Source: Microvirga antarctica
GTDB taxonomy: Bacteria > Pseudomonadota > Alphaproteobacteria > Rhizobiales > Beijerinckiaceae
NCBI RefSeq assembly: GCF_017921815.1
Contig: NZ_JAGEMM010000003.1
Span: 186,001 to 250,000 of the forward strand
Direction: 5' to 3'
Length of the DNA stretch: 64,000 nt
In this document: positions 1 to 62,189 of the stretch, in pieces
How positions within the stretch are numbered: position 1 is the first letter of the stretch
How the letters are laid out: each line of letters opens with the position of its first letter
Translations under genes and position numbers: made by a program
Notes under the pieces: generated by a model
The model's input: only the letters and a program-made list of their open reading frames with translations
Told to the model about the DNA's origin: nothing
Databases searched by the model: none

Positions 1-129
1 GGCGAAAGGGTCGGGGTCATGGCAGGCTCCGGTGATGCCCCACTATAAGCGTCAAGGAGCCGCGTTTCGATGGCATTATGGCGCAATCTCCCTTAGAAAA
101 TCCGGACAATATCTGTAAAGGCCGCTGAT

Positions 130-591: not shown

Positions 592-728
592 CCGGCCTGC
601 TCAAATCCGCGACATCTGCCGGTTCGGACGTCACTGTGCCTTGACGCGTCGCCGGGATCTGCTGGCATGATGCCGGAAAACCGGGACCGCGGGCGAAACG
701 CGCGGCTGGCATGAAGATTGCTTCGTCA

Positions 729-758
729 TTGACAATGCCCGGTCCGCGCGCGGACCGG
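729..758. promoter_or_regulatory. TTGACA box followed by a perfect 20-bp palindrome
   Basis: A TTGACA hexamer lies at 729-734 and a perfect palindrome at 739-758 (arms 739-748 and 749-758). The palindrome sits 25 bp before the ATG of the binding-protein gene. If TTGACA is a -35 element, the palindrome covers the expected -10, as an operator would. It could also fold as an RNA hairpin near the ribosome binding site (GAGGGAAGAGGG at 763-774). Confidence 0.4.
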
Positions 759-783
759 CACCGAGGGAAGAGGGTTCTGGCCA

Positions 784-1827: not shown

Positions 1828-1882
1828 CGTCATCACCCCTCGCGCGCCGCTGTCGACCCCAGCGCAGAAACGGAGCCTTCGC

Positions 1883-2674: not shown

Positions 2675-2675
2675 C

Positions 2676-3449: not shown

Positions 3450-3456
3450 AGCGCCG

Positions 3457-4599: not shown

Positions 4600-4603
4600 C
4601 GGT

Positions 4604-5500: not shown

Positions 5501-5594
5501 GCGGCGACCACGGTGGAGCCCACCGTTCGCCTGCTTCCAGCGCGATTGCAAGGTCCCTGCCGCCGGTTCCGGTCCCGGGGGCTTGGTCCAGCGT

Positions 5595-7160: not shown

Positions 7161-7356
7161 GCGACACGGCTCCAAAGTCAAAACAGCGGAAAAAGGGGAG
7201 TGCGCCGCAGCGGCCCCGCTTGTCTTGTCGAGGCATTTTTAGTCCCGGACCGCCGATTTGACTAGGCCGGGAGAGCATTTTCGCCTCTAACCTCCTCCCT
7301 GTCTGAAGATTCCATGGCAAGAGCATGGCAAGAGTTGCGCGAATTGAAGATCGACC

Positions 7357-8259
7357 ATGAGCCTCTCCCTCCTCTGGATCCCCGTCACGCTCGTGGCCGC
7401 GGCCGCTCAGACCGCCCGGAATGCGACGCAGCGCCGCCTGACTGAGACAATCGGAACGGTCGGCGCCACCCAGGTCCGGTTTCTCTACGGTTTCCCCTTC
7501 GCGCTCTTGTCGCTCGCGCTTTTGCGCCTGATCGGCGGAGAGATCCTGCCCGCGGTCAATCCGGAATTCTTCGCCTATGTGCTGGCGGGCGCCGTCTCGC
7601 AGATCCTGGCCACCGGCTTGATGCTGTCGGCCATGCGACAGCGCTCCTTCGGGGTCGTGACGGCCTACACCAAGACCGAGCCGGTCCAGGTGGCGCTCTT
7701 CGGCCTTGTCCTTCTGGGCGACCACATCACGCCCCAGATCGCCATGGCGATCGTCATCGCAACTGCCGGCGTGCTGGTGATGTCCATCAAGCCCGGCACG
7801 GACCTCAAGCATGCGGGCCTGCGCCCGATGATCTTCGGCATTGCGTCCGGGGCCTTTTTCGCACTGGCGGCCATCGGCTTCAGGGGGGCGATCCTGTCGC
7901 TCGACCAGGGTTCGTCCGTCATGCGGGCGACGACGACGCTCGCCTGGGGCCTGGGTCTCCAGACTGCCATCCTCGTCGCCTGGCTTGGCGTTTTCGACCG
8001 CAGGGCCCTTCTGGCAAGCTTCGGTGCCTGGCGGCCGTCGCTGGGCGCGGGCTTTCTCGGCGCGCTGGCGTCCCAGTTCTGGTTCATCGGCTTTGCGCTC
8101 ACCACCGCCGCCAATGTGCGCACCCTGGCCCTCGTCGAGGTCGTGATGGCCCAGCTCGTGTCACAGCGTTTCATGGGGCACGTGACCACGCGGCGGGAGC
8201 TGGCCGGCATGGTGCTCATCATCCTCGGAGTCGGGCTCCTATTGCTCGGTCAGCGCTGA
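7357..8259 (+). CDS. EamA/DMT-family transporter
   Basis: This 300-residue integral membrane protein has ten predicted helices in two EamA repeats (about residues 1-130 and 155-300). Conserved DMT features include the PVQVALFGLVLLGD segment at the end of the first repeat and the LVEVVMAQLVSQRF segment in the second. It reads away from the carboxypeptidase gene across a 196-bp divergent spacer and its 3' end overlaps the convergent Nudix gene by 21 bp. The two EamA proteins in this window are not close copies of each other. The substrate is unknown. Confidence 0.88.
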   Translation: MSLSLLWIPVTLVAAAAQTARNATQRRLTETIGTVGATQVRFLYGFPFALLSLALLRLIGGEILPAVNPEFFAYVLAGAVSQILATGLMLSAMRQRSFGVVTAYTKTEPVQVALFGLVLLGDHITPQIAMAIVIATAGVLVMSIKPGTDLKHAGLRPMIFGIASGAFFALAAIGFRGAILSLDQGSSVMRATTTLAWGLGLQTAILVAWLGVFDRRALLASFGAWRPSLGAGFLGALASQFWFIGFALTTAANVRTLALVEVVMAQLVSQRFMGHVTTRRELAGMVLIILGVGLLLLGQR

Positions 8260-8658
8260 CGTTTCGTCATTGATCGCCCGGGCCAGGGGCAGGATGCTGT
8301 CGCGCGTCAAGGCGGCGAGCGGAACGTCCCCCGGCGCGGACGGGTCGAGCCACAGGGACTCGGCGATTTCGCCCTTGCAGGAGATCCGGCCTGTCACCGC
8401 GACGGCATAAACGGCCGCCCGGACACGACGTCCCGGTTCATGGGCGGCCTCAGCTTCGCAGAGGCCCAATGGCCGGGCCGAGCCTGGCAGGATGCCGCAA
8501 CCGAGTTCCTCGTCGAGTTCCCGCGCCAGCGCCGTGAGATCGTCCTCGCCCGGATCCCGCTTGCCGCCCGGCTGCATGAAGACGTGCGTCCCGGCCTTCC
8601 GGACCAGCAGCACATGGCCCCTCTCATCCCGGATCAGCCCCACCACAACCTCGATCAT
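8239..8658 (-). CDS. Nudix hydrolase
   Basis: This 139-residue protein contains a complete Nudix box, G-x5-E-x7-REL-x-EE-x-G, starting at about residue 31 (PGGKRDPGEDD...RELDEELG). The box binds Mg2+ and hydrolyses nucleoside diphosphates linked to another moiety. Size and lack of extra domains fit a MutT/NUDT-like housecleaning enzyme; the substrate cannot be inferred. ATG at 8658 starts the first beta strand (MIEVVVGLI); the longer open frame upstream lacks domain similarity and would run into the divergent thiolase gene. The 3' end overlaps the convergent EamA gene. Confidence 0.9.
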   Translation of the reverse strand: MIEVVVGLIRDERGHVLLVRKAGTHVFMQPGGKRDPGEDDLTALARELDEELGCGILPGSARPLGLCEAEAAHEPGRRVRAAVYAVAVTGRISCKGEIAESLWLDPSAPGDVPLAALTRDSILPLARAINDETSALTEQ

Positions 8659-32559: not shown

Positions 32560-32864
32560 GTTCTGCCAAAGCGGGCCGGCACGCTCCGCGCGGCCAGCCG
32601 ACAGGGGTATGGCAAGGGGTCCGGACGCCGATCTTGACGATATCGGACATGGTCCGAAGGGGCAACTGCGGGCGGCCGCCAGGACCGGTATGATGAAGCT
32701 GCGGTCCGTCTCCCCCTGTCACCGGAGAGAGCGACGGACCCGGCTCCCGCTGGCCGCGACCTTTGCGACCGGCTTTCTCCCCAGGCTGCAAGCGGCGGCC
32801 TGAACCGACGGGGCCGCTGGAGCAAGCAGCCGGTGAGCGATGAAACACCTTGCTGGAGGTTGCC
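32560..32864. other. 305-bp intergenic region, no gene seen
   Basis: Short open frames here (for example 32609-32803) have no ribosome binding site, domain or coding-like composition. The region holds the leader of the next gene: a CTTGACG hexamer at about 32634 could be part of a promoter, and the GGAGG before 32865 is the ribosome binding site. Nothing else is recognised. Confidence 0.6.
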
Positions 32865-33965
32865 ATGGGCACACTTGCTGCCAAACCGGATATCCTGTTT
32901 GTCGACATTGGAGCGGGTGCGACCGATGCGACGACGACCATCAGCTACGAGAAGAACCTCGACGACGAGCTCTGGGAGCGCTTTTCCAGCGGGTCGACGG
33001 TCGGCGCGTGGGCGTTGATCGATCCCCAGTTTCGCACTGGGCTTGGTGATGAGGCCGATCGCGCGGCGAGCTATCCGATTACCCTGACGCCCGGCCAGAA
33101 ATATGAGGTTGGGCTCTTTACGCAGCAGCAGCGGCCCGGCACGGGCAAAGAGTTTCGAACGCTGATTTTGACGGTCTATTGCCTGTTCCTGAAACCGCGT
33201 GCCGCAGCGCTCATCACCGATGAGAACCGCGCCTTCGGCGGAACCTGGTACGCCCATCAGGTCGCCACGAACCGACCGACCGAGATCGTGATGATCGGCG
33301 CATCGCGCAAGGCACCGCTCATCGATGCCGATGGCCTCCCCCATCCCGTCGAGCCCGATGGGGCACCGACGGCGCCCCTCGGCCTCTCGACGAACCATGT
33401 GGTCGAGATCAAGCCGCTGCTCCCGGGCAACGGCTACTTCGCCGTGACGATGGTGACCGACAGGTTCGGCAACTGGGACCTGAGACAGTGGGATTTAGTC
33501 ACGTTGCGCCGCCAGCTCACCGTCGTGTTTCCGACGATCCACATCTACAACGACGGTGATCCCTTCAGCGAGGGCGAGGGCGAGTTCTGGTTTCGCATCT
33601 ATACCGGGGCGTTCAACAACCCGGTTCTCGTGCGGCCCGACTTTCATCTGCCAACGCAGGACATCGATGACTGGAACGAGACGGATCGCCCCTACACGGT
33701 CGGCTTTGCCCATGTGGGCCCGCTGACGGCCGTATCGCCCGAGGAGGCGGAGGTTTCCGTCCAGTCCTGGGGCGTCGAACATGATGGTGTGTTAGAGGCT
33801 GATGAGGGAGCCCAGGGAGACCGGACCCTCCCGCTGCCCACAGGGCGACTTTCCGAGAATGTGCCCGTCCTGGTTGGCTTTACGATGGATTGCCCCGTCT
33901 CGACGACTGATGACGATTTCCACTATGGGGTCGATGTGCAGTGGTCTGTCACCTACGCTCCGTGA
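32865..33965 (+). CDS. Unrecognised 366-residue soluble protein
   Basis: I do not recognise a family. The protein is acidic, has no signal peptide or membrane helix, and looks like a beta-rich cytosolic or non-classically exported protein. It contains aromatic-strand segments such as FAVTMVTDRFGNWDL, PTIHIYNDGDPFSEGEGEFWFRIY and DWNETDRPYTVGFA, and a DDDFHYGVDVQWSV C-terminus. The central EGEGEFWFRIYTG and LTPGQKYEVGLFT segments recall fibronectin-III/Ig-like domains, but this is a weak resemblance. ATG at 32865 follows GGAGG at a good distance. It is a stand-alone gene convergent with the NRPS-like gene. Codon use and GC match its neighbours. Confidence 0.72.
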   Translation: MGTLAAKPDILFVDIGAGATDATTTISYEKNLDDELWERFSSGSTVGAWALIDPQFRTGLGDEADRAASYPITLTPGQKYEVGLFTQQQRPGTGKEFRTLILTVYCLFLKPRAAALITDENRAFGGTWYAHQVATNRPTEIVMIGASRKAPLIDADGLPHPVEPDGAPTAPLGLSTNHVVEIKPLLPGNGYFAVTMVTDRFGNWDLRQWDLVTLRRQLTVVFPTIHIYNDGDPFSEGEGEFWFRIYTGAFNNPVLVRPDFHLPTQDIDDWNETDRPYTVGFAHVGPLTAVSPEEAEVSVQSWGVEHDGVLEADEGAQGDRTLPLPTGRLSENVPVLVGFTMDCPVSTTDDDFHYGVDVQWSVTYAP

Positions 33966-34083: not shown

Positions 34084-37000
34084 TCAGGCGGCAGCGCCTT
34101 CCGGGGAGAGAATCGGCGCCTGCGTCGGAACCTGGGCGGGCGACCCCCACCAGTCGCTGCCGGCCGGGATCGACTCACCCTTCATCACCAGTGTCAGCGG
34201 CCCGAGGCTCGAGAGCCGGCCGAGCGAGGTGTCGTAGAGAACCGTCGAGCCGGAGCCCACCGTCACGCTTTCACCGAGTTCGATCCGACCGACCTTCATC
34301 AGGCGGTCTTCATAAAGGTGGGTCTGCAGGCAGGCATTGGAGTTGATGGCCGAGTAGTCGCCGATGGTCACGCAGTCGAATTCGGTGATGTCGGCCGTGT
34401 CCATGAACACACCCTTGCCGGTCTTGGCGCCGAACAGGCGAAGCGCCCAGGGCAGAAACGGCGTGCCCCTGAAAGGCTCGAGGATCGCCTTGCCGGCCAT
34501 GCCCCAATACATGACGGCGACGGCCTCGGTCTTGAGGGCCCACCACGACCACATGGGGTGCATGGTCGGACGGTAGACGCCCATGAGAAGCCATTTGTAG
34601 CCGACCGCCACGAAGAGCTGCACGACGGCGATCACGACGCTTGCCACGACGCACAACGCCAGCGCCGTGCCCCAGCGCCCGTCGAGAACCGACGGTGCCA
34701 GCACCTCCATGGCCATCGTCGCAAAGGTGATGAACAGGGCGGTCGGAAGGGTGATGTTGAAGGCTTCGAACAGGGCACGGCCGAGCTTCAGCCAGCGGGA
34801 GGGCTCGTAGGTATCGGTCGCGGCCGAGGCGAAGCGCTGCCGGACCGGAAGCTGGATCGGCGGAGAGCCGAACCAGGTCTCGTCCGAGCCGACCTGGCCG
34901 CCTGCCGGAGGCTGCGACTTGACGCCGATGAGAGCACCGGACGCCAGCGCGCTGCCGAGGGGCACGACGGCGTCGTTGCCGATGAACACCCGCGAGCCGG
35001 TGGTGACCTTGCCGAGCGTCATCCAGCCGCGCCGCATTTCTTCGTCGCCCAGCACCACGTCGTCGGCCACGAAATTCTGGTCGCCGATGTCGATCAGGTC
35101 GAAACGTCCTGCGAGATTGGTCGAGATCTCGGATCCCTTGCCGATCTTGGCACCCATGAGACGGTACCACGCGCGCATGTAGACGGTCGCAAACAGCGAC
35201 GACAACACTTCGAGCATGACTTCGGTCGCGAGCGACACCATCCACTTGCGCGCATAGAGGCCGCTGTAGACGGAGTAGACGCCGGGGCGCAGGCGGGGCA
35301 GCAGGAGCCAGCGGATGGCCGCGATCAGCAGCACCGTGGCGAAGATCATGACGGCTGCGGCGGGAAGCGCCAGGGCCGGCATGTAAAAGAGGTAATTGAT
35401 GCCGATCAGCGGATTGATGAACGAGTCGACCTTCTCCATCAGGTCGAAGGCCGGCACGATGGGGATCAGCGCGATGGGCGGTGCGAGGATCAGCATGACC
35501 ACGTAGAAGACCGTCAGGGCGAACTTGCGTACGGGGCCTGCTTCGGCTGCCTTTGGCAGATGATGGGGATCGAGCACCCGCACGAATGTTCCCGGCGATC
35601 CGCGAAGGGCATGCCAGGGATCCACGCGCGTCCCGGCGCGCAGGGAGGTCAGGTCGGCGAGTTCCGCGCCTTCGCCGATGAAGACATCGTTCTCGATGAC
35701 GCAGGACGTGCCGATGCAGGCGTCGTTGTCGATCGTGACCGGGCCGATGATCAGCTCCTGGCCGACGACGCGCGCATTGGCGATCGTCACCTTGCCGCCG
35801 ACGCTGGCATGGTCGCCGATGGTCACGAGATCGATGGCGCCCGCGTCGATTTCGGCGATCAGCGCCTCACGGCCAACCTTGGCGCCCAGCAGCCGCAGAT
35901 AGATGCGGATGGCGGGCGAGCCCTGGAACCACTTGATGTGGACAAGGCTGAGGATCCGCTGCACGAGCCAGAGACGGTAATAGTAGGTGCCCCAGAGCGG
36001 GTAACGGCCGGGCTTGATCCGGCCGATGATGGCCCATTTGGCCACCACCGCGAAGGCCGTGGTGAACACGTTGACGGCCATGTAGGCGCCAAACACCACC
36101 GCCATGTCGCGCACCATCGAGGCGTCTTCGCCCGAGATCAGCGAATAGCCGATGAAGATGCACAGCCACGGGGCCGACATCAGCGTCAGGAGCATTGGCA
36201 TGGCGGCCGTCTGCGCGAGGCCGCACAGGAACCGGCGCATGCGCGGCGGTGGTTCGAAGGTGCCCTGCGCGGCCGCATCGTGCGAGCGCAGCTTCATCTC
36301 GACGATCGAAGCGATGCCCCGCAAGGTGCGGCCCGTATAGACGTCCGGGAGCGTGATGGCGCCCAGATGCGGCACGGTGCGGACAAGGGAGACAAAGCGG
36401 GCGGCAAGGAGGGAATGGCCGCCGAGATCGAGGAAGAAGTCTGCGGTCAGCGGAACCGCCTGATCGGGGAAGATCTTCCTTGCCGCCTCGAGGAGGGCGG
36501 CCTCGGTGGCGGTTTCGGGCTCATCCTGCTCGAACGACGGCAGGGCCGCGGTGAGCGGGGCGATCCTCAGCGCCTTCCGGTCGATCTTGCCGGATGCGGC
36601 AAGGCGCGGAAAGGCGGTGACGGTTTCGAAATGGGCCGGAACCATGTAGGCGGGCAGCCGCTCGCGCAGCGCGAGCCGGAGCTGGGGCGAATCCGGCAGG
36701 ATCCCGGGCTCGGGGATCAGGAAGGCCACCAACCGGTCGAGCCCGTCGTCGTTGCGCAGGGCGACCGCCGCCTGGGCGATGCCCGGCAGGGTGGCGAGAA
36801 CGGTCTCGATCTCGCCCAGTTCAACGCGGAATCCGCGGATCTTGACCTGGTCGTCGATCCGCCCCTGGAACAGGATCTGTCCCGCCGCATCGATCGTGAC
36901 GGCATCGCCCGAGCGATACAGGACGGGATCGAGGCCCCCGGTTGAGAACGGGTTGGGAACGAACTTCTCGGCCGTCAGATCCGGCCTGCCCACATAGCCG

Positions 37001-38073
37001 GTCGCAATGCCGGGGCCGCCGATGAGCAATTCGCCGACCGCGCCGGGTTCGACGAGCTTGAGGGAATCGTCGACGACGTAGCACGTGTAATTGGCAATCG
37101 GCGTGCCGATGGTGATCGCGTCGCCGGCTGTCAGTTCGGCGGCGGTTGCCACCACGGTCGCCTCGGTCGGCCCATAGCTGTTGAAGAGGCGACGGCCCGG
37201 CTTGGCGAATTTATTGACTAGCGCGGGCGGGCAGGCCTCGCCCCCGAGGATGACAAGGCGCAGCGACGGCACATCGTCGCCCAGCATGCCGAGCAGGGTC
37301 GGCACGGTGTCGATGACCGTGATACCGGCCTCCCGCATGGCGGCGGCGAGCATATCCGTGTCGCTCAGGAGGTCCTTTCCGGCAACCCAGAGGCTCGCGC
37401 CGGCCAGATAGGGAATCCAGATCTCTTCCATCGACAGGTCGAACGCCACCGAGCTGCCCTGGAACATCACGTCATCGCCCTGAATCCCGTAGAGCGCATT
37501 GGCGCTGCGCAGGAAATGGCAGATGTTGCGATGGGTGATGCGGATGCCTTTGGGACGTCCGGTCGAACCCGAGGTGTAGATCACATAGGCGGTGTGATCG
37601 GCCGTGAGCCCCCGCTCGCGGGCAGTCGGGGCCGGCGGTGCCTCCTCGGCCAGAAGCGATTGTGGCGTCAGAACCGTGACGCCGGCCGTTGCCTGTGGGC
37701 GCCACTCGTCCGGAACCAGGAGGGCTTTGGCCTGAACGTCTTCCAGGCAGGTCGCGATCCGATCGATGGGCGCCTCGGAATCGAACGGGAGCCAGGCTGC
37801 GCCCGAACGCGCGATCGCCACCTGGGTGACCAGCAGTTCCCAGCCTCGCGGCATCCACAGGCCGACCACGTCGCCCGGTCCGATGCCCTTGGCCACCAGC
37901 CCGTTTTCCAGCCGCCGCGCCGCCTCGTCGAGGGTCGCGTAGGTCAGTCGGATGTTCCCGTCGATGATGGCGGTGTTGCCCGGATTCGCGAGGACGCTGG
38001 CGTCGAAGAGGTCGACGAGCGTGTCTTCGCGCAGGAGATCGGGGCGGTCGGGACCGCGAAGCGGATTGTTCAT
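34084..38073 (-). CDS. Single-module NRPS-like membrane synthetase (Pls/homopoly-amino-acid synthetase architecture)
   Basis: A 1329-residue protein. An adenylation domain (about 20-505) has A3 YTSGSTGRPKG at 166-176, A5 NSYGPTE at 298-304, A7 YRSGD at 386-390 and A10 GKIDRK at 495-500. A carrier domain has the phosphopantetheine Ser554 in LGGHSLL. Membrane segments near 620-670, 852-920 and 1103-1165 alternate with three soluble hexapeptide/left-handed-helix-like repeats. Each repeat begins with a related motif (LRLLGAKVG 727, YRLMGAKIGKG 970, LRLFGAKTGKG 1211). There is no ordinary C or TE domain. This A-T-TM-C1-C2-C3 plan is known from epsilon-poly-L-lysine synthetase and relatives. ATG at 38073 (MNNPLRGP) was chosen; the longer frame overlaps the upstream gene. 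The product is unknown. Confidence 0.88.
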   Translation of the reverse strand: MNNPLRGPDRPDLLREDTLVDLFDASVLANPGNTAIIDGNIRLTYATLDEAARRLENGLVAKGIGPGDVVGLWMPRGWELLVTQVAIARSGAAWLPFDSEAPIDRIATCLEDVQAKALLVPDEWRPQATAGVTVLTPQSLLAEEAPPAPTARERGLTADHTAYVIYTSGSTGRPKGIRITHRNICHFLRSANALYGIQGDDVMFQGSSVAFDLSMEEIWIPYLAGASLWVAGKDLLSDTDMLAAAMREAGITVIDTVPTLLGMLGDDVPSLRLVILGGEACPPALVNKFAKPGRRLFNSYGPTEATVVATAAELTAGDAITIGTPIANYTCYVVDDSLKLVEPGAVGELLIGGPGIATGYVGRPDLTAEKFVPNPFSTGGLDPVLYRSGDAVTIDAAGQILFQGRIDDQVKIRGFRVELGEIETVLATLPGIAQAAVALRNDDGLDRLVAFLIPEPGILPDSPQLRLALRERLPAYMVPAHFETVTAFPRLAASGKIDRKALRIAPLTAALPSFEQDEPETATEAALLEAARKIFPDQAVPLTADFFLDLGGHSLLAARFVSLVRTVPHLGAITLPDVYTGRTLRGIASIVEMKLRSHDAAAQGTFEPPPRMRRFLCGLAQTAAMPMLLTLMSAPWLCIFIGYSLISGEDASMVRDMAVVFGAYMAVNVFTTAFAVVAKWAIIGRIKPGRYPLWGTYYYRLWLVQRILSLVHIKWFQGSPAIRIYLRLLGAKVGREALIAEIDAGAIDLVTIGDHASVGGKVTIANARVVGQELIIGPVTIDNDACIGTSCVIENDVFIGEGAELADLTSLRAGTRVDPWHALRGSPGTFVRVLDPHHLPKAAEAGPVRKFALTVFYVVMLILAPPIALIPIVPAFDLMEKVDSFINPLIGINYLFYMPALALPAAAVMIFATVLLIAAIRWLLLPRLRPGVYSVYSGLYARKWMVSLATEVMLEVLSSLFATVYMRAWYRLMGAKIGKGSEISTNLAGRFDLIDIGDQNFVADDVVLGDEEMRRGWMTLGKVTTGSRVFIGNDAVVPLGSALASGALIGVKSQPPAGGQVGSDETWFGSPPIQLPVRQRFASAATDTYEPSRWLKLGRALFEAFNITLPTALFITFATMAMEVLAPSVLDGRWGTALALCVVASVVIAVVQLFVAVGYKWLLMGVYRPTMHPMWSWWALKTEAVAVMYWGMAGKAILEPFRGTPFLPWALRLFGAKTGKGVFMDTADITEFDCVTIGDYSAINSNACLQTHLYEDRLMKVGRIELGESVTVGSGSTVLYDTSLGRLSSLGPLTLVMKGESIPAGSDWWGSPAQVPTQAPILSPEGAAA

Positions 38074-38113
38074 GGGGGAGCCATATCGGCGTTGGGGTGA
38101 AACAGGGTCGCTT

Positions 38114-38833
38114 TTAGTCCAAGGTTCGTGCGAACGCACTTAGCATTTCGTCATTGCAAAAGGTTTGATCCTGCCATTCGGTCACGTTGAAATCCGGCAC
38201 GGCCTCGTAGGCGGCCAGCGCCACAACGGAATGGTTCAGCCACGGTTTGAGGCGGACGCAGACATGGGGGAACGGCCCGCGTCCCGAGCGCGAGGCCCGC
38301 ACCGCGAAAACGTCGCCCTTGCGGTAAACCGCGATGTCCTGCGGCGAGATCATGACCTCGCCGGTCAGCTTCAAGGCCGCCTCCTTGAGGCTCCAGAGGA
38401 CGATTTCGGCCTCGCGAGGATCGTGTGCCAGATGCGGCAGGAGCGGCATTTCCTCATCCGTCACGGCGATGGAGAGCGGCGACGCCTGATCGTCCGATTC
38501 CAAGATCGCCACATCGATTCCCACATGCGCCCGCGCCGAGACGGCGATGACCGTCAAGGGGCCGGCGTGGCTCATGTTGAAAGCGGGGCCGTCGACGCAG
38601 AAGGGCTTGCCGGTGCTGTCCAACGACAGGGTCGGAGATGTTCTGGTGGCTTCGCGGAGAGCCAGACGCAGGGCGCCATGGCCGAACCGATAGGCAGCGC
38701 CCGCCTCGGTCCGGCGAAAGCGGGCGGCTGCGTCGCGCTCCCATGTCTGCGCAGACGCGTCGAACGCCTCAAGGCATGCGGCCTCGAGCCGTGCCGAAGC
38801 GTGACCGCGATCGAACGAGAAAACCGAAATCAT
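38114..38833 (-). CDS. 4'-phosphopantetheinyl transferase (Sfp type)
   Basis: This 239-residue enzyme has the three Sfp-superfamily motifs: GKPFCVDGPAFNMSHAG (about 84-100), VGIDVA (about 113-118) with the Mg-binding aspartate, and WSLKEAALK (about 157-165). It transfers the phosphopantetheine arm from CoA to the carrier-domain serine. The gene ends 40 bp before the NRPS-like ATG on the same strand, so it most likely activates that protein. ATG at 38833 (MISVFSFD) begins the first strand; 38851 is a longer alternative. The second metal residue, often Glu in GIDVE, is Ala here, with acidic residues one to two positions later (ILESDD). Confidence 0.9.
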   Translation of the reverse strand: MISVFSFDRGHASARLEAACLEAFDASAQTWERDAAARFRRTEAGAAYRFGHGALRLALREATRTSPTLSLDSTGKPFCVDGPAFNMSHAGPLTVIAVSARAHVGIDVAILESDDQASPLSIAVTDEEMPLLPHLAHDPREAEIVLWSLKEAALKLTGEVMISPQDIAVYRKGDVFAVRASRSGRGPFPHVCVRLKPWLNHSVVALAAYEAVPDFNVTEWQDQTFCNDEMLSAFARTLD

Positions 38834-38963: not shown

Positions 38964-39057
38964 GGACAGGGACGGCGCGTCCCAACTGCCGGCCTGAGCC
39001 GGAGCAGGCAAACGTCCAATAGGCTCCAAGACTCCGGTTGACTCTCCAATCCCTAAA

Positions 39058-39079: not shown

Positions 39080-39856
39080 ATGAAAATGAGTTGGGCAAGG
39101 TCCATGCGTGCCGGGCAGAAGGACGTTTTTGCCGCCTTGCGGCAGGAAATCAGGCGGCTGGATGGAGATTTTCGCCAGCGGGAAACGCTGTCCTTCGGCG
39201 TGAAGGCTCTCGATCGGCGGCTTCCCGGGGGCGGGCTGCCGCGGGGGGCCCTGCATGAGATCACCGAAGGGGGGCCGGCAGCGGAATTCTCCGGTTCGGC
39301 CACGCTTTTTACGGCAGGGATCGCGGCCCGCCTCAAGGGGCCGATCCTATGGTGCCTGAACCGGCGCGATCTGTTTGCGCCGGGCCTGGTGAATGCAGGG
39401 TTGCACCCGGACCGGGTGATCTATGCGGAGACCTTTCGCGAGCCGGACATTCTGCCGGCCATGGAAGAGGGCCTTCGTGAGAAGGGGCTGGGCGCGGTGA
39501 TCGGCGAAGTGACCCGGCTGGGTCTGACCGCCTCGCGTCGTCTTCAACTGGCCGCCGAGACATCGGGCGTTCCGGTTTTTGCCCTGCGGCGCTGGTGGAC
39601 GATGGCCGAGCGGGATCTGACCGGTCTGCCCACCGCCGCCGTCACGCGCTGGCAGATCTCGCCCTTCATCTCGCAGGCGCCGCCGGCCCCGGGCCTGGGA
39701 CGTGCCCGCTGGCATGTGGACCTTCTGCGCTGCCGCGGCGGTGAACCGTACTCCTGGATTCTCGAGGCCTGCGATGCGAAGGGTCGTCTCGCTCTACCTG
39801 CCGACCTGGCCGACCGACCGGATCAGGCGCCAAGGCGCCGCGCCGCCGCCGGGTGA
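39080..39856 (+). CDS. imuA: Mutasome protein ImuA
   Basis: This 258-residue RecA-like protein is the alphaproteobacterial ImuA type. Core segments are LSFGVKALDRRLPGGGLPRGALHEIT and ILWCLNRRDLFAPGLVNAGL, with a RecA-fold middle and the family tail [30 protein letters not shown]. With ImuB and DnaE2 it makes the SOS-inducible mutasome for error-prone lesion bypass. A LexA box lies directly upstream. ATG at 39080 is given; ATG at 39104 (MRAGQKDVF) is nearly as likely because the LexA box ends only seven bases before 39080. The 3' end overlaps imuB by 83 bp. Confidence 0.93.
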   Translation: MKMSWARSMRAGQKDVFAALRQEIRRLDGDFRQRETLSFGVKALDRRLPGGGLPRGALHEITEGGPAAEFSGSATLFTAGIAARLKGPILWCLNRRDLFAPGLVNAGLHPDRVIYAETFREPDILPAMEEGLREKGLGAVIGEVTRLGLTASRRLQLAAETSGVPVFALRRWWTMAERDLTGLPTAAVTRWQISPFISQAPPAPGLGRARWHVDLLRCRGGEPYSWILEACDAKGRLALPADLADRPDQAPRRRAAAG

Positions 39857-41279
39857 GCCGCTGGTCACCGTCATCACGCAAGGCTCGCGCCGTCTCGTCG
39901 GCGCGGCCGATCACGCAGCCCATGCCCTCGGGTTGCGGGTCGGGCAGACCGTGGCGCACAGCCAGGCCCTCGTGCCCAATCTCCACATCGCCACGGCCCT
40001 GCCGGATCAGGACGCGGCGGCCCTGGTCGAGCTGGCGCGCTGGTGCATCGGCTATTCGCCCGTCGTGGCCCCCGATCCGCCGGACGGAATCTGGATCGAC
40101 ATCGCCGGATCCTCCGCGCTCTTCGGCGGCGAGCAGAAGCTGCTGGCCGACCTGATCCGCAGGCTGTCCGCCCAGGGCATTCATGCGCGCGCCAGCGTCG
40201 CCGACACGCCGGGGGCCGCCTGGGCCATGGCACGCTACGGGTCCCACGCCGTCGTGTCGTCCGAGCGCACGATAGCGGCTGTCGCCGATCTGCCGGTGGC
40301 GGGCCTGCGCCTGGCCGATTCGATCCTCGAGGGCCTGAACCGGTTGGGAATCGAACAGATCCGGCAATTGGCCGCGATGCCCCGCGCTCCCATGACACGC
40401 CGGTTCGGCAAGGAGGTCGGGCTTCGTCTTGACCAGTTGCACGGCCATGCCTTCGAGCCGCTCAATCCGCTGGTGCCCAAAGAGACACCGGCCCGGCGTC
40501 TGGTCTTTGCCGAACCGATCGGGCAGCTCGCCGATCTCAAGGATGTGCTCCATCGGCTGGCCGCGGCCCTGTGCCAGGACCTCGCCGAACAGGATCGCGG
40601 CGTGCGCCGGCTCGATCTGATCTTCGAGCGGATCGACCGGCATAACGTGGCCCTGCGGGTCGGGACCGCCCGGGCGACGCGGGATGCGCCGCATCTGGCC
40701 AAACTCTTCGACGAACGCCTGGAGACCGTCGATCCGGGTTTCGGCATCGAGGCCGCCCAGCTCGTGGCGAGCCAGGTGGAGCCCCTGAGCGCCGATCAGG
40801 TCGAGGCCCAGGATATGGGGATTGCCGAGGGATCGCCGGTGGATCTCAGCCGGCTGGTGGATCGCCTCGGCGCACGCCTCGGGCCGAAACGCATCTATCG
40901 GCTGGAGCCTGTCGAAAGCCACATTCCGGAGCGCTCGGTGAAGCGAATTTCCGCGCTTGCGCCCCTCACCGGGCAGGCTTGGCCCGCCACCCTGTCGCGG
41001 CCGACGCGGCTGCTGGAATATCCGGAGCGGGTCACCGCAACCGCGCTGCTGCCCGATCATCCGCCCGCCTTCTTCGTCTGGCGGCGCGTGCGCCACCGGG
41101 TCATCAAGGCCGACGGCCCGGAACGCATCACCGGCGAATGGTGGCGCGGGGCGCAGGACGATTTTCTGCTGCGCGATTATTATCGGGTGGAAGACGAGAA
41201 GGGCGCGCGGTTCTGGATTTTCCGCGATGCCCCGGCCGATCAATCGGCGCGCTGGTGGCTGCATGGAATTTTCGCATGA
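39774..41279 (+). CDS. imuB: Y-family polymerase-like mutasome protein ImuB
   Basis: This 501-residue protein is related to Y-family polymerases, with DinB-like segments [24 protein letters not shown] and [22 protein letters not shown]. As in other ImuB proteins, the first catalytic acidic motif (DMD in DinB) is absent; here the strand reads SLYLPTW, so it is probably a non-catalytic hub that brings DnaE2 to the beta clamp. ATG at 39774 (MRRVVSLYL) lies inside the imuA end, and the stop overlaps the dnaE2 ATG (ATGA). It is the second gene of the SOS operon. Confidence 0.94.
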
Positions 41280-44200
41280 GCTACGCCGAACTTCAGGTCA
41301 CGACCCATTATTCGTTTCTGCGCGGAGCCTCGAGCCCGCGCGAATTGTTCGAGCAGGCCAAGCAGCTTGGCCTGAAGGCCCTGGGCATCACCGACCGCAA
41401 TTCGCTGGCGGGAATCGTCAAGGCTTTCGAGGCCGCGAAGGAAACCGGCCTGCGCCTCGTGGTCGGCTGCAGGCTCGATCTCGTGGATGGCACGTCGCTC
41501 CTGGTCTATCCCACCGATCGTGCCGCCTATGCGCGTCTGTGCCGGCTGTTGAGTCTTGGCAAGGGCAGGGCCGGGAAGGGCAAATGCGACCTTTCCTGGG
41601 ACGATGTGGTGGCCTGGAGCGAGGGCCTTCTTGGCGTGCTGCTGGGCGACGAGGCGAACGACACGCTTGCCCGCAATCTGTCCCGGCTGAAGGCCACCTT
41701 CGGCGACCGCGCCTATCTGGCGCTGGTCCGGCGGTTCGGCGCGGACGAGCATCTGCGTCTCTGGCATGTGGAACAGGCAGCGCAGGCCGCCCGCGTGCGC
41801 ACGGTGGCAATGGGCGACATTCTCTACCACCATCCGGATCGGCGTCTGTTGCAGGACGTGGTGACGTGCATTCGACAGGGCTGCACCATCGATGCCGCAG
41901 GCTTCCGCCTGGAACGCCATGCCGACCGGTTTCTCAAGGATGGAATGGAGATGGCGCGGCTGTTCGAGCGGCATCCCGAGGCGGTCGCGCGAACGGACGA
42001 AATCGTGCGGCGCTGCTGCTTTTCCCTCGATGAGCTGGCCTACCAATATCCGTCCGAAACGGAAGCGGGTGAGAGCGCGCAGCAGAAACTGGAGCGCCTG
42101 ACCTGGGCGGGCGCGCGGGATCGCTATGCGGAGGGTGTTCCGGATGCCGTCACGGCGCAATTGCGGCACGAATTGCGGCTGATCGAGAGCCTGAAATACG
42201 CACCCTATTTCCTCACCGTCCATGCCATCGTGACGTTTGCGCGGGGCCGGGGAATCCTGTGTCAGGGGCGGGGGTCGGCGGCCAATTCGGCGGTCTGCTA
42301 CGTGTTGCGCATCACCTCCATCGATCCGGTGCGCACCGAGCTTCTCTTCGAACGGTTCATCTCGCAGGAACGTAACGAACCGCCCGATATCGACGTGGAT
42401 TTCGAGCATGAGCGGCGCGAAGAGGTCATTCAGTGGATCTACGACACCTACGGCCGCCAGCGCTCGGCCCTGACGGCGGTGGTGAGCTGCTACCGGGCGC
42501 GGGGCGCGGTGCGCGAGGTCGGCAAGGTTCTGGGCGTGCCGGAGGATGTCACCGGAGCTCTCTCAGGCCTCGTCTGGGGATGGAGCACCGAGGGGGTCAG
42601 CGAACGGGAGGTCAAGGATCTCAACCTCAATCTCGACGATCCGCGCCTGCGCCTCACCCTCGATCTGGCGCGCGCCCTGATTGGCGCGCCGCGTCACCTG
42701 TCGCAGCATCCGGGCGGTTTTGTGCTGACGCAGGACCGTCTCGACGATCTCGTGCCCATCGAGCCGGCCGCCATGGAAAACCGGCAGGTGATCGAATGGG
42801 ACAAGAACGACATCGAAACCCTGAAATTCATGAAGGTCGATGTGCTTGGGCTCGGCATGCTCGGCTGCATGCGCCGCGCCTTCGATCTGCTGAAGGCGCA
42901 TAAGGGCCTGTCGCACGACATGGCGTCGATCCCCCCCAAGGACGGCCCCACCTACGCGATGATCTGCAAGGCCGACACGGTGGGCGTGTTCCAGATCGAA
43001 AGCCGCGCGCAAATGGCCATGCTGCCGCGCATGAAGCCGACCCAGTTCTACGATCTGGTCATCGAAGTCGCCATCGTGCGGCCGGGGCCGATCCAGGGCG
43101 ACATGGTGCATCCCTATATCCGCCGACGGGAAGGCCGCGAGACGGTTTCCTATCCGACCCCGGAGCTGGAACGGGTGCTGGGCAAGACGCTCGGCGTGCC
43201 GCTGTTCCAGGAACAGGCGATGCGCGTGGCGATCGAATGCGCGGGGTTTACGGCCTCCGAGGCTGACCAGCTGCGGCGCTCCATGGCGACTTTCAAGTTC
43301 AAGGGCGACGTGTCGAAATTCCAGCGCAAGCTCATCGATGGCATGCGCGAGCGCGGCTACGAACAGGCCTTCGCAGAGCGCATCTTCAAACAGCTCGAAG
43401 GCTTCGGCTCCTATGGGTTTCCGGAAAGTCACGCGGCGTCGTTCGCGCTCATCGCCTATGCGTCGTCATGGATGAAATGCCACCATCCAGATGTGTTCTG
43501 CTGCGCGTTGCTCAATGCCCAGCCGATGGGCTTCTACGCGCCTGCCCAATTGGTGCGCGACGCAAGGCAGCACGGGGTCGCCATCCGACCGGTCGACATC
43601 AACCGCTCGCAATGGGACTGCACCCTCGAGGAGCATCACGGCTCCCTTGCGGTCAGGCTGGGATTGCGGATGGCCAAGGGCCTGGCCGGTGCGGAAGGCG
43701 AGCGGATCGTTGCCGCCCGGGGCATCGCACCGTTCGAATCCGTCGAGGATCTCTGGCGGCGGGCGGGGGTCGCGGTGGCGGCTCTCGAGCGCCTGGCCGA
43801 GGCCGATGCCTATGGGTCCCTCGGCCTCAATCGCCGCGATGCCCTGTGGCAGGTCAAGGGCCTGGGCGACAAACCCCTGCCGCTTTTTGCAGCCGCGGAT
43901 GATCGCGACGAGCAGCGGGTGCCGGAATCGGTGGAGCCGGCGGTTGCCCTCACCCCCATGACGACCGGTCGCGAGGTGGTGGAGGATTACCGCTCCAAGG
44001 GCCTCACGCTGCGTCAACATCCGGTCGCCTTCCTGCGGCACGATCTCGATGAGCGCCGCATCCTGCGCTGCGCCGACCTGCGCTCGGCCCGCCACGGCCA
44101 GCGGGTGACGGTGGCGGGCCTCGTGCTGGTGCGGCAGAAACCGGGTTCGGCCAAAGGCGTGATGTTCATCACCATCGAGGACGAGACCGACATCGCCAAT

Positions 44201-44527
44201 CTCATCGTCTGGCCGTCCCGGTTCGAAAAGCAGCGGCGCCTGATCCTGTCGGCCGGCATGATTGCCTGCCGGGGGCAGGTTCAGCGGACCAAGGACGTGA
44301 TCCACGTGGTTTCCGAACACATGATCGATTTCTCGGAATCCCTGAAATCCGTCGGTGACCGGCAGGAGCCTTTTCCCTTGCGGCATGGTCGGGGCGACGA
44401 GGCCAAGCGCGGCGGCGGGCCCGATCCGCGCGATGGCCCCGCACTGGGCCGCAAGGCGCGGGAGATCTACATTCCGGATCTGCGCCTCGGCAGCGGCATC
44501 AAGATCAAGACCCGGGATTTCCGTTAG
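41276..44527 (+). CDS. dnaE2: Error-prone DNA polymerase DnaE2
   Basis: This 1083-residue C-family polymerase has the DnaE2 length. An N-terminal PHP domain ([19 protein letters not shown]) is followed by the palm with [10 protein letters not shown] catalytic aspartates (about residue 370) and [17 protein letters not shown]-terminal helix-hairpin/OB part comes last ([26 protein letters not shown]-like ETD segment). It performs lesion-bypass synthesis after DNA damage with ImuA and ImuB. ATG at 41276 overlaps the imuB stop by four bases, so it is translationally coupled and shares the LexA-controlled promoter. Confidence 0.96.
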
Positions 44528-58143: not shown

Positions 58144-59420
58144 GCAACCTCCTCCGTCGTCGTCGCTTGTGCAGCCCGCACCGGGGTGCGCCAGAGGCGC
58201 CTGCCCAACGCCGCCACGGCCCGTTCGCCGGCAATCACCGCGCTCTCGATGGTGGCGGGCAGCGATCCGATCCAGTCTCCAGCCAAGGTCAGATTCGTCA
58301 ACGGACGGACGGGCGGCTGGGGCAGTGGCCCCGCGCACTGGCTGATGGTGGCGCGACGTTCCTTGACGAGCCTCGATGCGGGCATCGGGCCGGTTCCGGC
58401 GTCGATGCCGAGCGCGATCAGGACCGGACTGATTTCGCGCCATATGTCGGCGGCTAGCACATCCGTGTCGCTATCGATGACAGTGCCGGCGGCTGATACG
58501 GTCACGCTCACATGGTCCGCTCGGACAAGCATCCATTGAGCAAGGCCGCCGGTCAGGCCGATCAGGCGTGGCGTGACCAGTCCTTCGAGACGGAAATGCA
58601 CGTTCAGGATTGGTTCGAATTGCGTCGGGACTGTGAGCCACGGAAGGAGCCGCCGGATCTCCTGAGGTTGCAAGGCAAGGATCACGCGATCCTCCGGGCC
58701 CAGTGCCACAAGACTGTCGGACAGGCGCAGGCGCGTTGCCCGTCTTCCGTCGGTTTCGACGGCGCGGAGCCGATGCGACGGGAGAAACCGGACCTGTCGC
58801 GTGGACAGACATTGCAGGGCGGGCTCTACGAGATCGGCCGTCAGGCCGGACTGCGCAACGAGAAGCCGGGCGGCACCCGGCAATGCGAGCCGCCACAGGC
58901 CCCGTCGCAACCGTTTGGCGGAGGCCTGCGCCATCGGCGTATTGAGAATGGCGACCGTAAGCGGCTCGATAAACGTGTCGCGCGCCTGACTGCCTTCAAA
59001 GATCTGACCTACCGGCCGATCGACAACAGAAAAAAAGAGCCGGGCAAAGCGGGGGATGTCGGCGAGGGTCAGACCGGGAGGTCGGCGATTGCGGTGTCGC
59101 CATGACAGCGGCTGGAGGCCCGCATGTCGCGTCACTCCCGTAAGGCCGTCGTAAAGCGGCAGCCCGGCCGGCTCCGGCGCGATCCATTGGTTGCGCGCGC
59201 CAACCTCGTCGAGCAGCCGAATGGCCGCACGGTTGCCGGTAAACAGCACATGAGTGCCGTTGTCATGGTGAAAACCGTCGGGCGGAAAAAGGGTGCGGCA
59301 GCGGCCGCCGGCCTGGGGCGCCGCCTCATACAAGGTCACGCGGTCGCCGCTGCGGGACGCGGCCAAGGCTGCGCTCAGACCCGCAACGCCGGCGCCCACG
59401 ATGTGCGTATGCGCCACCAT
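58140..59420 (-). CDS. hpnE: Hydroxysqualene dehydroxylase HpnE (squalene-associated FAD desaturase)
   Basis: This 426-residue flavoprotein has an N-terminal Rossmann motif (HIVGAGVAGLSAALAA, with GxGxxG) and EAAPQAGGRCRTL, then the HpnE-specific LAGDWIGSLPATIESAVIAGERA C-terminus. HpnE reduces hydroxysqualene, made by HpnC from the HpnD product presqualene diphosphate, to squalene. Its start overlaps the hpnCD stop (TGATG) and its stop overlaps the ispH start in the same way. It should lie at the membrane with the other squalene enzymes. Confidence 0.92.
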   Translation of the reverse strand: MVAHTHIVGAGVAGLSAALAASRSGDRVTLYEAAPQAGGRCRTLFPPDGFHHDNGTHVLFTGNRAAIRLLDEVGARNQWIAPEPAGLPLYDGLTGVTRHAGLQPLSWRHRNRRPPGLTLADIPRFARLFFSVVDRPVGQIFEGSQARDTFIEPLTVAILNTPMAQASAKRLRRGLWRLALPGAARLLVAQSGLTADLVEPALQCLSTRQVRFLPSHRLRAVETDGRRATRLRLSDSLVALGPEDRVILALQPQEIRRLLPWLTVPTQFEPILNVHFRLEGLVTPRLIGLTGGLAQWMLVRADHVSVTVSAAGTVIDSDTDVLAADIWREISPVLIALGIDAGTGPMPASRLVKERRATISQCAGPLPQPPVRPLTNLTLAGDWIGSLPATIESAVIAGERAVAALGRRLWRTPVRAAQATTTEEVA

Positions 59421-61081
59421 CAGGCTGGCCTCATCGCGAGGCCGAGCAGTTGCAGGCGATCGCCCGTGGTCAGCCGCAACCGGCCGCGTCGCTCAGTCCA
59501 TCCGCGCGCGATCAGCCGATCGAGGATCAGCCGGTAGCTCTCCAGCATGAGGATTGCGGGTTTCAGGGCCGCCCGGTCGAGAGATCGAAGGGAGCGATCG
59601 GCCGCGGCGAAACCGGCAGCCGCCTCGCGCGCCAGCTCCTCGCACGCCCTCGCAAAGCGCGGATCGGACACCATGGCGGAAGCCGTCCCGTCCGCAACAC
59701 CCCATGCGTTCAATCGCGACAGGGGGACATAGACGCGATCGCGTTCGGCATCCTCATCGACGTCGCGCAGGATATTGACCAGCTGCAAGGTGTGACCCAG
59801 ATCGAGTGCGAATTCGTGCGCGTCCTTGGCCCCAAAAATGCGCACGGACAGCGCACCCACGGAGCCCGCAACCTGTCGAGCGTAACGCGCAAGGTCGGCA
59901 TCCTGGGCGAAACGGAGACGGTCGGCACTGTCCGTGGCCATCCCGTCCAGCACGGCGTGAAACTCGTGTAACGGCAAGGCAAAACGAGCCGCGGCATGGG
60001 CCAGCTCCCGTCCGACCGGACTCACCGCTCGCGTGTCGAGCGTGTCGATTTCCTGCCGCCAGCAGTCGAGGAACTCCTCTTTCTCCCGGACCGGGGCGGC
60101 CCCGTCGGCGATGTCATCCACCGCGCGGCAGAACGCATAGACGGCGTGGATCGCGCGGCGCTTCTCGTCCGTCAGGCTTTGCATGCCGAGGCGGAAAGAG
60201 GAGCCGGACCGATTGACGATCGCGGCCGTGATGTCACGGTCGCGTCTTGTCCGCGCAAACACCCGGTCGCCGACGCTCTGCAGGAAGGCCGCGGCTGCGT
60301 CCGCTTTGGTGACCTCCACGCGCTCGCGGACAGGATCGCGGCTGCGCAGCCGGTCGCGCAGCCGCTTGGCCAGTGCCAGGGTCGCGACGCTCTGGGCGCG
60401 CAGACGTCGGCTCTTCAATTGTCCGGGAAGGGCCTCGGCGACGTCGATCAAATGATCGACGCGATCAAGCGCGGTATCGAGAATCCTGCGCCGATGTTCC
60501 GGACGGCTGGGGTCGAAAAAGGCCATCTGGCCGCCGGCCCGGTCGAGCCACGGCAGGGGCAGATAGATCCGGTCGAGATCCCGGGCATCCTTGCTGCAAT
60601 CCTGAAGGTGATTGAGGATCTGCAGGGCCGTGCAAAGGCCATCGGCAGCAGCGTTCGCACTCTCCGGCTCGCCATGAAGCCGCAGCAGAAAGCGGCCGAC
60701 GGGGTTGGCGGAGTGTCGGCAGTATTCGATCAGCTCCGCCCAATCCGCGTAACGATCTTTGGTGGCGTCCTGTCGGAAGGCCTTGAGCATCGCCCTCGCC
60801 TCGGCCACGCCGGCGCCATGAGCCGCGTCGACGGCGTGCAGGCTTTCGGCTTCCGCGCAGGTCGAAAGGCCCGTTGTGAGTCCGCTCTCAAGGGCCGCGA
60901 GCTGTGCGATCTTGTCGTCCGCTGTCAGGCGGTCCGAGTCCGCGATGTCGTCTGCCAGACGCACAAAGCGATAGAAGGCCAGAACGGCTGCGCGATCATG
61001 CCTGGACAGCAGAAGGGACGCGACCGGAAAATTCTCGTCGCGCGGCTGTTTGGTGGCAGGTGGCCGGGCTTCACGCATCAT
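59420..61081 (-). CDS. Fused HpnC-HpnD: presqualene diphosphate synthase and hydroxysqualene synthase in one protein
   Basis: This 553-residue protein contains two complete squalene/phytoene synthase domains. The N-terminal half (about 10-265) is HpnC-like: ENFPVASLLLSRHDRAAVLAFY, first Asp motif DDIAD, then LQILNHLQDCSKDARDLDRIYLP. The C-terminal half (about 290-540) is HpnD-like: GSSFRLGMQSLTDEKRRAIHAVYAFCRAVDDIAD, then LQLVNILRDVDEDAERDRVYVP. HpnD makes presqualene diphosphate from two FPP and HpnC converts it to hydroxysqualene. Normally these are separate genes. ATG at 61081 (MMREARPP) lies two bases after the upstream stop; the longer frame from 61165 runs into that gene. No frame break appears between the halves. 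Confidence 0.9.
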   Translation of the reverse strand: MMREARPPATKQPRDENFPVASLLLSRHDRAAVLAFYRFVRLADDIADSDRLTADDKIAQLAALESGLTTGLSTCAEAESLHAVDAAHGAGVAEARAMLKAFRQDATKDRYADWAELIEYCRHSANPVGRFLLRLHGEPESANAAADGLCTALQILNHLQDCSKDARDLDRIYLPLPWLDRAGGQMAFFDPSRPEHRRRILDTALDRVDHLIDVAEALPGQLKSRRLRAQSVATLALAKRLRDRLRSRDPVRERVEVTKADAAAAFLQSVGDRVFARTRRDRDITAAIVNRSGSSFRLGMQSLTDEKRRAIHAVYAFCRAVDDIADGAAPVREKEEFLDCWRQEIDTLDTRAVSPVGRELAHAAARFALPLHEFHAVLDGMATDSADRLRFAQDADLARYARQVAGSVGALSVRIFGAKDAHEFALDLGHTLQLVNILRDVDEDAERDRVYVPLSRLNAWGVADGTASAMVSDPRFARACEELAREAAAGFAAADRSLRSLDRAALKPAILMLESYRLILDRLIARGWTERRGRLRLTTGDRLQLLGLAMRPA

Positions 61082-61082
61082 T

Positions 61083-62189
61083 CTATGCCGCCGGATAGAG
61101 CCGTCCCTTCCACCCTGGCCGTCGTGCCGTGCCGATGCCGAGGAGCACACTCCACTGGATCGCAAGGCCGACGAGAATGGTGAAGGGATGAAAGAGGATC
61201 GAGACCGGGTTTTCCCGCGTGCTCAGGGTGATCAGGGCTCGCAGGCCGACCGTCAGCATGACCGCGAGAATGATAGGCACGGTCGGCTGGAAGGCAAGCA
61301 GGACGAACGGAGCAACGTGCCCCCCCAGCAGAAGAAGGGTCCAGATCGGCAAGCCGACGGGCGTGGCCATGCCTTCGCGCGCATTCTTGGCAAAGCCGTC
61401 CCACGCCTCGTCAAATCCACGATACATCCGGCATGTCCCAAGTCGGTCGCCTTGAATGAGATCTGTCATATGGCCCTTGCGCCGGAACAGGCGCGCCAGC
61501 TGGATGCCATCATGAAGGAGAGCGCGGATCGCCGCATGACCGCCGACGGCGCGGTAGGCCTGCGCGTCCACCAGCACAAGCTGGCCGCAGGCAGCGCCCA
61601 GTCCCGGATCGCGTGACAGGCGCATGAAGCCGATCGGCAGATAACCCAGAAGCAGCAGATTGATGGTCGGGACCGTCAGCCATTCCCCGACGCTTTTCAT
61701 GATCTGCCGCGGCACCGCGCTGACGAGGGCCATCGCGTTCTTGCGGGCATGACCCGCGAGCATGGCGGCTGCGTTCGGGCAGAGGCGCACATCCGCATCG
61801 ACGAACAGAAGATGGGTGCCCTTCGCAGCCTGCGCGAGGTGATGACAGGCATGGACCTTGCCGGTCCATCCATCGGCCAGGGACGGCGCCAGATGCAGGT
61901 GTACCCGCGTGTCGCGCGCAGCGTATTCCGCCACAATCTGCCCGGTTCCATCCGTCGAGCCGTCATCCATTACCAGGACTTCAATGGCGATGCCGACGCT
62001 CGCCAGCGCCGCATCGAGTGCCGCCGCGATGTTGCCAGCCTCATTGCGGGCGGGGATCAGGATGGAGACGAGCGTGTCGGTGTCCGGCGAGGCCCTTGGC
62101 GTGGCGCGCAGGATGGACAGGTTCATCAGCGCAAGAAGAGCGGGGAACGCCGCCAGCACAAGAACCAGATAATGTGCAGCCTGGCTCAT
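61083..62189 (-). CDS. Family 2 glycosyltransferase with C-terminal membrane helices (CrtQ/CruC-like)
   Basis: This 368-residue GT2 enzyme has an N-terminal membrane anchor (AAHYLVLVLAAFPALLALMNLS) and nucleotide-sugar motifs VSILIPARNEAGNI, VMDDGSTDGT and the DxD-type LLFVDADVRL. C-terminal hydrophobic helices follow (about 270-345). It is proposed to glucosylate the carotenoid carboxylic acid or alcohol, as CrtQ does in staphyloxanthin synthesis. The start overlaps the acyltransferase stop (ATGA), and its stop is one to two bases from the hpnCD ATG. Confidence 0.88.
   Translation of the reverse strand: MSQAAHYLVLVLAAFPALLALMNLSILRATPRASPDTDTLVSILIPARNEAGNIAAALDAALASVGIAIEVLVMDDGSTDGTGQIVAEYAARDTRVHLHLAPSLADGWTGKVHACHHLAQAAKGTHLLFVDADVRLCPNAAAMLAGHARKNAMALVSAVPRQIMKSVGEWLTVPTINLLLLGYLPIGFMRLSRDPGLGAACGQLVLVDAQAYRAVGGHAAIRALLHDGIQLARLFRRKGHMTDLIQGDRLGTCRMYRGFDEAWDGFAKNAREGMATPVGLPIWTLLLLGGHVAPFVLLAFQPTVPIILAVMLTVGLRALITLSTRENPVSILFHPFTILVGLAIQWSVLLGIGTARRPGWKGRLYPAA

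Follow-up and report, generated by a model that had tools for sequence, protein, structure and literature searches.

The locus described here (Table 1) lies within the window, the whole stretch of 64 000 nucleotides of Microvirga antarctica DNA that was analysed, and consists of a gene for a phosphopantetheinyl transferase (PPTase) and, downstream of it on the same strand, a gene for a large synthetase. The open frame of the synthetase runs from 34084 to 38139, with the ATG at 38073 as its likely start; residues are numbered here as in P0001 (1331 residues), which gives values two higher than numbering from that ATG. The initial annotation had placed an Sfp-type PPTase gene 40 bp upstream of the synthetase, and the frame coordinates bear this out. 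Scans of the locus for promoters and terminators did no better than scans of shuffled sequence, no repeats that would point to a mobile element were found on either side of the gene pair, and of the six proteins scanned in the immediate neighbourhood none was recognized as a degrading peptidase, an exporter or the product of a precursor gene. Divergent from the PPTase gene and adjoining it are imuA-like, imuB and dnaE2 genes (39080–44527, plus strand), which we take to be a mutagenic repair cassette; the imuA-like frame has no Pfam match and has a relative in 18 of the 37 genomes searched. At the other end, convergent with the synthetase gene, is an open frame of 371 residues (32850–33965, plus strand) with no Pfam match at E values up to 0.001.

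Table 1. Features of the synthetase–PPTase locus (window positions; residue numbers of P0001)
Feature	Position	Strand	Basis
Sfp-like 4'-phosphopantetheinyl transferase (PPTase), 239 aa, with VGIDV and WSLKEAALK	38114..38833	-	PF01648 profile, motifs; ATG at 38833, stop ending at 38114
Intergenic gap between PPTase and synthetase genes, exactly 40 bp	38074..38113	.	Frame coordinates
Pls/PosA-family synthetase, A-T-TM-C1-TM-C2-TM-C3, 1329 aa	34084..38073	-	ATG at 38073; profile, AlphaFold2, hydropathy
Adenylation domain, residues 24–505, pocket code DLEDIGSVVK	36565..38010	-	Pfam; match to PosA A domain 8g95, 407.7 bits
T-domain serine codon, S556	36412..36414	-	Ser in 116/116 aligned rows
Membrane region, putative polymerase: three TM pairs and C1, C2 and C3 beta-helix domains	34084..36270	-	TIGR02353, hydropathy, AlphaFold2, Foldseek
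H1254 codon in C3, proposed catalytic base	34318..34320	-	Conservation; role inferred

Domain architecture and family membership

At E values up to 0.001 the synthetase matches four Pfam families, AMP-binding, AMP-binding_C, PP-binding and Hexapep, and no condensation or thioesterase family is among these matches. By hydropathy there are three membrane-segment pairs (residues 623–646/657–683, 845–879/892–928 and 1107–1130/1132–1166), and a GAKxG motif occurs three times (YLRLLGAKVGR at 725, YRLMGAKIGK at 970 and LRLFGAKTGK at 1211), each time opening a soluble domain. These domains, C1, C2 and C3, are homologous to one another (25–27 % identity pairwise by BLAST), and their likeness is far beyond chance, since the E values lie between 2.8e-13 and 9.2e-13. 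An AlphaFold2 model of the membrane region, built from 26 rows (mean pLDDT 89.4, pTM 0.89), confidently predicts three repeats of a membrane helix pair and a short-strand beta-helix. When the model was compared with the PDB by Foldseek, the best matches were mostly hexapeptide (left-handed beta-helix) acetyltransferases, with some gamma-class carbonic anhydrases, each covering a fraction of the model (query TM-scores 0.08–0.17 among the 50 matches listed). Pfam, hydropathy, BLAST and AlphaFold2 thus agree on what the initial annotation had described, an A-T module followed by three membrane-flanked hexapeptide-like domains with a GAKxG motif. The modelled architecture also matches how the PosA model has been described (PMC10522769).

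The same early reading saw in this a Pls-type plan, to be checked against TIGR02353, the curated Pls/PosA model. That model matches residues 622–1315 of the 1331 with 604.8 bits against a cut-off of 423.1, which, together with the modelled three-repeat architecture, places the protein in a known family, the CHPA synthetases (antiSMASH class ‘NAPAA’). The synthetase belongs to the Pls/PosA-type CHPA synthetases, having the profile match, a single A-T module, three membrane pairs and the Asp1/Glu3 pair of the pocket code. Its A-T-TM-C1-TM-C2-TM-C3 plan is common to Pls, PDAP, poly-Dab and PosA synthetases (PMC10522769, PMC8117764, PMC4668381, PMC8949500, PMC4361855). The description of the enzyme as ‘new’ did not hold up, the family model, the antiSMASH class and the DLED-G-TV-K type of code all being published already, and a new protein family is rejected on the TIGR02353 match.

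Pocket code and likely monomer

A motif-anchored alignment of the adenylation domain gives the code shown in Table 1. The columns used return the published PosA code, DMEHNGTVSK, for the posA-type locus of Acinetobacter baumannii, and for locus L142 they return DSECYGGVTK, as published for a Bdellovibrionales homologue (PMC10522769). Asp and Glu at positions 1 and 3, found like the T-domain serine in all 116 aligned rows, accord with the cationic homopolymer that the initial annotation had proposed; published CHPA synthetases use this pair to hold a diamino acid, and in PosA the two residues are those that bind the alpha-amine and the side-chain amine (PMC10522769). At position 2 there is Leu, near in size to the Met of PosA that the same paper names as a chain-length gate. 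Position 4, which makes no substrate contact in the PosA structures (PMC10522769), is Asp both here and in 92 of the 116 rows. Position 9 has Val; the PosA residue there, Ser313, is important for function. Given the Asp/Glu pair, Leu2, Asp4 and Val9, the monomer is predicted to be basic and would most likely be ornithine or a near homologue (e.g. diaminobutyrate or lysine), a larger basic substrate being left possible; Val in place of Ser313 at position 9 and Asp at position 4 make ornithine itself less than secure.

A DLE(D/S)-G-(S/T)VVK code is carried by 96 of the 116 full-length rows (46 DLEDIGSVVK, 39 DLEDLGTVVK, 4 DLEDVGSVVK, 3 DLEDIGTVVK, 2 DLESIGSVVK and 2 DLESVGSVVK). These rows come from 123 loci, seven having been dropped as partial or overlong, and the set is biased in that 80 loci are the best 80 among 574 that matched a query led by the window protein. 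In a tree of 83 rows, from which 33 of the 116, mostly of densely sampled groups, had been removed by hand and in which the pocket columns were kept, the 66 DLE rows fall together in a single clade with starred support, its sister being four DMEHNGTVSK rows that include the posA-type locus (quick search, LG+G4, no bootstrap; the program flagged several long branches and odd compositions). The initial annotation had also suggested a phylogeny against Pls, PosA and PDAP synthetases; the relation to PosA could be given in this way, but the tree includes no characterized Pls, PDAP or poly-Dab enzyme.

PosA, which makes delta-poly-L-ornithine in A. baumannii (PMC10522769), resembles the window synthetase in its domain plan, its Asp1/Glu3 pair, the sister position of its clade and an end-to-end identity of 41 % (to the A. 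baumannii posA-type gene), and its A domain (8g95) is the best match among solved chains of single-A-domain length; it differs in having the code DMEHNGTVSK and in that posA is reported to make up an operon by itself (PMC10522769), whereas the window synthetase has an adjoining PPTase gene. Pls of Streptomyces albulus (epsilon-poly-L-lysine; 7wew) has the same domain plan and family model (PMC8117764), but its A domain matches less closely (280 bits, compared with 408 for that of PosA) and it has Ala at pocket position 2 (PMC10522769) in place of Leu. Ala at that position occurs in two of our rows, L153 and L154 (DAESIGTVIK), which lie elsewhere in the tree. The pls gene stands in an operon with pldII, encoding a degrading peptidase (PMC8117764, PMC4361855), and no such gene was recognized among the immediate neighbours scanned here. 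The synthetase as an orthologue of PosA or of Pls is rejected on the pocket codes and the tree.

The DLED-G-TV-K signature is in print for Rhizobia, Methylobacterium and archaea with no substrate named (PMC10522769), and it is also the code of an antiSMASH NAPAA cluster, likewise of unnamed substrate, in Bosea sp. NBC_00550 and seven other complete Bosea genomes (PMC10508160). The NBC_00550 code, DLedLgTVvK, places that enzyme in the same clade as ours, and DLED codes are found at our Bosea loci L075, L083 and L088; unlike in the window, no PPTase was detected beside the three full-length Bosea loci examined. A word search of the open-access papers covered for the pocket codes, which codes printed with spaces would escape, returned the Bosea paper alone, and the open-access papers covered give no product, substrate or activity for DLED-code enzymes. 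Since the signature was published with no substrate, the DLED clade appears to have been noted in print and to be uncharacterized. A large alphaproteobacterial branch, comprising Azospirillum, Methylobacterium, Bosea, relatives of Rhizobium and the genus of the window, shares what is nearly a single, uncharacterized pocket. Few natural amino-acid homopolymers are, to our knowledge, known.

Another possibility is that the substrate is a new one, such as arginine or another strongly basic amino acid, held by the acidic residues at positions 3 and 4, and that the polymer falls outside the known set. The E and D of the DLED code would fit such a substrate, the clade is distinct from the rows with PosA-type, DAES- and DFE-type codes, and the Bdellovibrionales homologue, with its different code, prefers arginine (PMC10522769). 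The size of Leu2, the sister relationship to PosA and the lack of contact at position 4 in the PosA structures (PMC10522769) nevertheless tell against it, and we consider a substrate of this kind unlikely, if worth bearing in mind.

Proposed route to the polymer

We put the probability that the two genes form an operon for a cationic homo-poly(amino acid) at about three in four. The PPTase would attach phosphopantetheine to the T-domain serine, and the A domain, to judge from its pocket, would select and adenylate a basic amino acid and load it onto the T domain. By homology with Pls and PosA, residues linked by way of their side-chain amines would then form a short isopeptide polymer. The three beta-helix domains, each anchored in the membrane, would work jointly as a single polymerase. 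Its active centre, probably only one, would lie in C3 and, as in hexapeptide acyltransferases that are trimers, would take its shape from all three beta-helices; H1254 may serve there as the catalytic base. The polymer, its linkage, its export and its biological role are all matters that we infer; several known amino-acid homopolymers are antimicrobial. The packing of the three beta-helices follows the PosA model (PMC10522769). Polymerization by C3 alone is argued against by work, cited in PMC4668381, that found each of the three tandem domains to be essential in Pls.

The polar residues of C3 that are kept in at least 115 of the 116 rows, most of which belong to the DLE clade, are E1185, T1206, Q1252, H1254, E1257, K1262, Y1282, K1300 and E1302, compared with two in the C1 part (K681 and R702) and two in the C2 part (D1006 and N1035); H1254 is the only histidine of the C-terminal region conserved to this degree. 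The region could conceivably move a single aminoacyl group off the T domain and onto an acceptor in the membrane or cell wall, with no polymerase involved. The Foldseek matches, mostly one-step acetyltransferases, would agree with this, as would the position of the synthetase in many relatives beside housekeeping genes and outside any biosynthetic cluster (identities by eye). However, the characterized enzymes of the same plan in the papers covered, Pls, PDAP synthetase and PosA, polymerize (PMC10522769, PMC8117764, PMC4668381), and rows with the PosA code keep the same polar residues in C3; single transfer therefore seems to us improbable.

The adjoining PPTase and its genomic context

The PPTase has a marginal Pfam score (PF01648, 25.1 bits against a cut-off of 25) and is assigned as Sfp-type on the ACPS superfamily profile together with its two motifs, which follow the pattern (V/I)G(V/I)D...WxxKEAxxK that we take to be the Sfp-type form. 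Its pairing with the synthetase had been called unusual, and with respect to the literature this stands: the legend of a figure showing the context of four characterized synthetases has no PPTase among the genes it names (PMC8117764), posA is on its own, as stated above, and no report of a PPTase-paired Pls-type synthetase was found in the open-access papers covered, including passages of PMC4361855 and PMC10212144. Among the loci collected here the claim fares less well. An iterated profile run over the locus ORFs, which superseded searches from four and then nine sequences (11 matches each), found a PPTase beside the synthetase in 30 of the 123 loci, in both gene orders, and pairing as a unique trait is rejected. 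The figure of 30 is a lower bound, because the flanks extend over several kilobases and some contigs end early; within the flanking DNA examined no PPTase was detected in the other 93 loci. A strict motif expression fits 13 of the 30, the other 17 resting on the profile, with PF01648 backing four of these (L132, L133, L135 and L137) and the record annotation backing L009. Two loci, L061 and L149, whose contigs are of equal length and whose offsets coincide, are apparently one record, and further overlaps between the locus collections are possible. In 27 paired loci the PPTase is on the synthetase strand and no more than about 530 bp away (upstream in 12, downstream in 15; L006, listed as upstream through two overlapping open frames, actually has its PPTase downstream), and in three it is on the other strand, two of these at 1.7 and 3.6 kb. 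The Rhizobium loci L006 and L007 and the Sphingomonas locus L009 resemble the window in joining synthetase and PPTase in a unit on one strand, but with the PPTase downstream and, in L009, a PosA-like code. The paired or unpaired state requires 11 changes on the 83-row tree, so that, with 30 of 123 loci paired, the arrangement is a recurring minority in the sample and not a singular case.

In the genus of the window the synthetase is patchy, six of 37 genomes passing the TIGR02353 cut-off, and in all six the second ACPS-superfamily gene immediately precedes that of the synthetase, sharing its contig and strand (L131–L135 and the window). With L012 and L023 these make up a subclade of eight loci, to which the PPTase is the only common neighbour family (ORFs of at least 90 aa); other flanking genes differ or are shared by few. 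The gene pair lies at several chromosomal sites in the genus, and at the DNA level the five other genus loci resemble the window across the synthetase but, except in L133, not in the flanks; the PPTase is too diverged for a DNA match and was recognized at the protein level. One context is common to three of the five (L131, L134 and L135). Most simply, the pair would have remained together as its surroundings changed. L133 also matches window positions 44–8260, and its pair lies near genes whose window homologues are some 26–38 kb away, an arrangement that hints at local relocation. Six genus genomes do not have the pair beside imuA, G001 and G011 carrying it elsewhere; in these six, similarity to the window on the imuA side starts at 39030 or later, and since the only match to 15000–39030 is a tRNA gene in one genome, no clean empty site can be demonstrated. 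Among relatives (Beijerinckiaceae and kin), genes that by eye appear to encode enoyl-ACP reductase and chorismate synthase lie near the synthetase, in clusters of 40 and 25 loci, respectively, suggesting that there the synthetase has a stable, long-held position.

In the genome of the window (completeness estimated at 100) a single adenylation domain exceeds the TIGR01733 cut-off; there are three PP-binding matches, one of them the synthetase, and two ACPS-superfamily genes, the second of which (63.4 bits) is taken to be AcpS. Each of the five other genomes of the genus that carry the synthetase likewise has one adenylation domain at E values up to 1e-65. Two or more ACPS-superfamily genes are present in all nine TIGR02353-positive genomes and in 15 of 52 negative ones (one-sided Fisher test, P=7.5e-5; 61 genomes, own and relatives, relatedness uncorrected, the neighbour itself being the second gene in paired genomes). 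In synthetase genomes outside the genus, the PPTase is directly downstream in G054, 1.7 kb upstream on the other strand in G038 and 3.6 kb downstream on the other strand in G047, whose synthetase may be split or broken because its adenylation part lies outside the open frame. Since pairing is found in six of six synthetase-bearing genus genomes, and since the genome of the window has just one further ACPS-superfamily gene and no second NRPS adenylation domain that exceeds the cut-off, the PPTase is, from its sequence context, very probably the dedicated activator of the synthetase. That it is instead the general Sfp-type enzyme of the cell, adjoining the synthetase by chance, would suit the unpaired relatives, which seem to use a PPTase encoded elsewhere (two ACPS-superfamily genes in ten of ten tested, read as AcpS and one other), but is highly improbable given that it is the only neighbour family shared by the whole subclade and that the six genus genomes have no other A domain over the cut-off.

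A synthetase with its own activator and no other NRPS adenylation domain above the cut-off in the genome makes the two-gene form a convenient unit for learning the product of this branch. We would go further only tentatively, with the proposal, itself rather doubtful, that the polymer of the DLE(D/S) clade consists of an amino acid new to homopolymers and is widespread in Alphaproteobacteria, and that the pair of the subclade is a self-sufficient unit that changes site as one piece, bringing its activator into genomes that have no other NRPS adenylation domain.

Elsewhere in the window, a single frame of 581 residues (59420–61165, minus strand) is a fusion of HpnC (residues 39–297, 339.5 bits) and HpnD (317–573, 339.6 bits), two enzymes of squalene synthesis. 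A single match across both halves was obtained in 25 of the 37 genomes of the genus, that of the window included and three with in-frame stops, and the two halves match as separate stretches in G011, G040 and G060 and in a second copy in G007.
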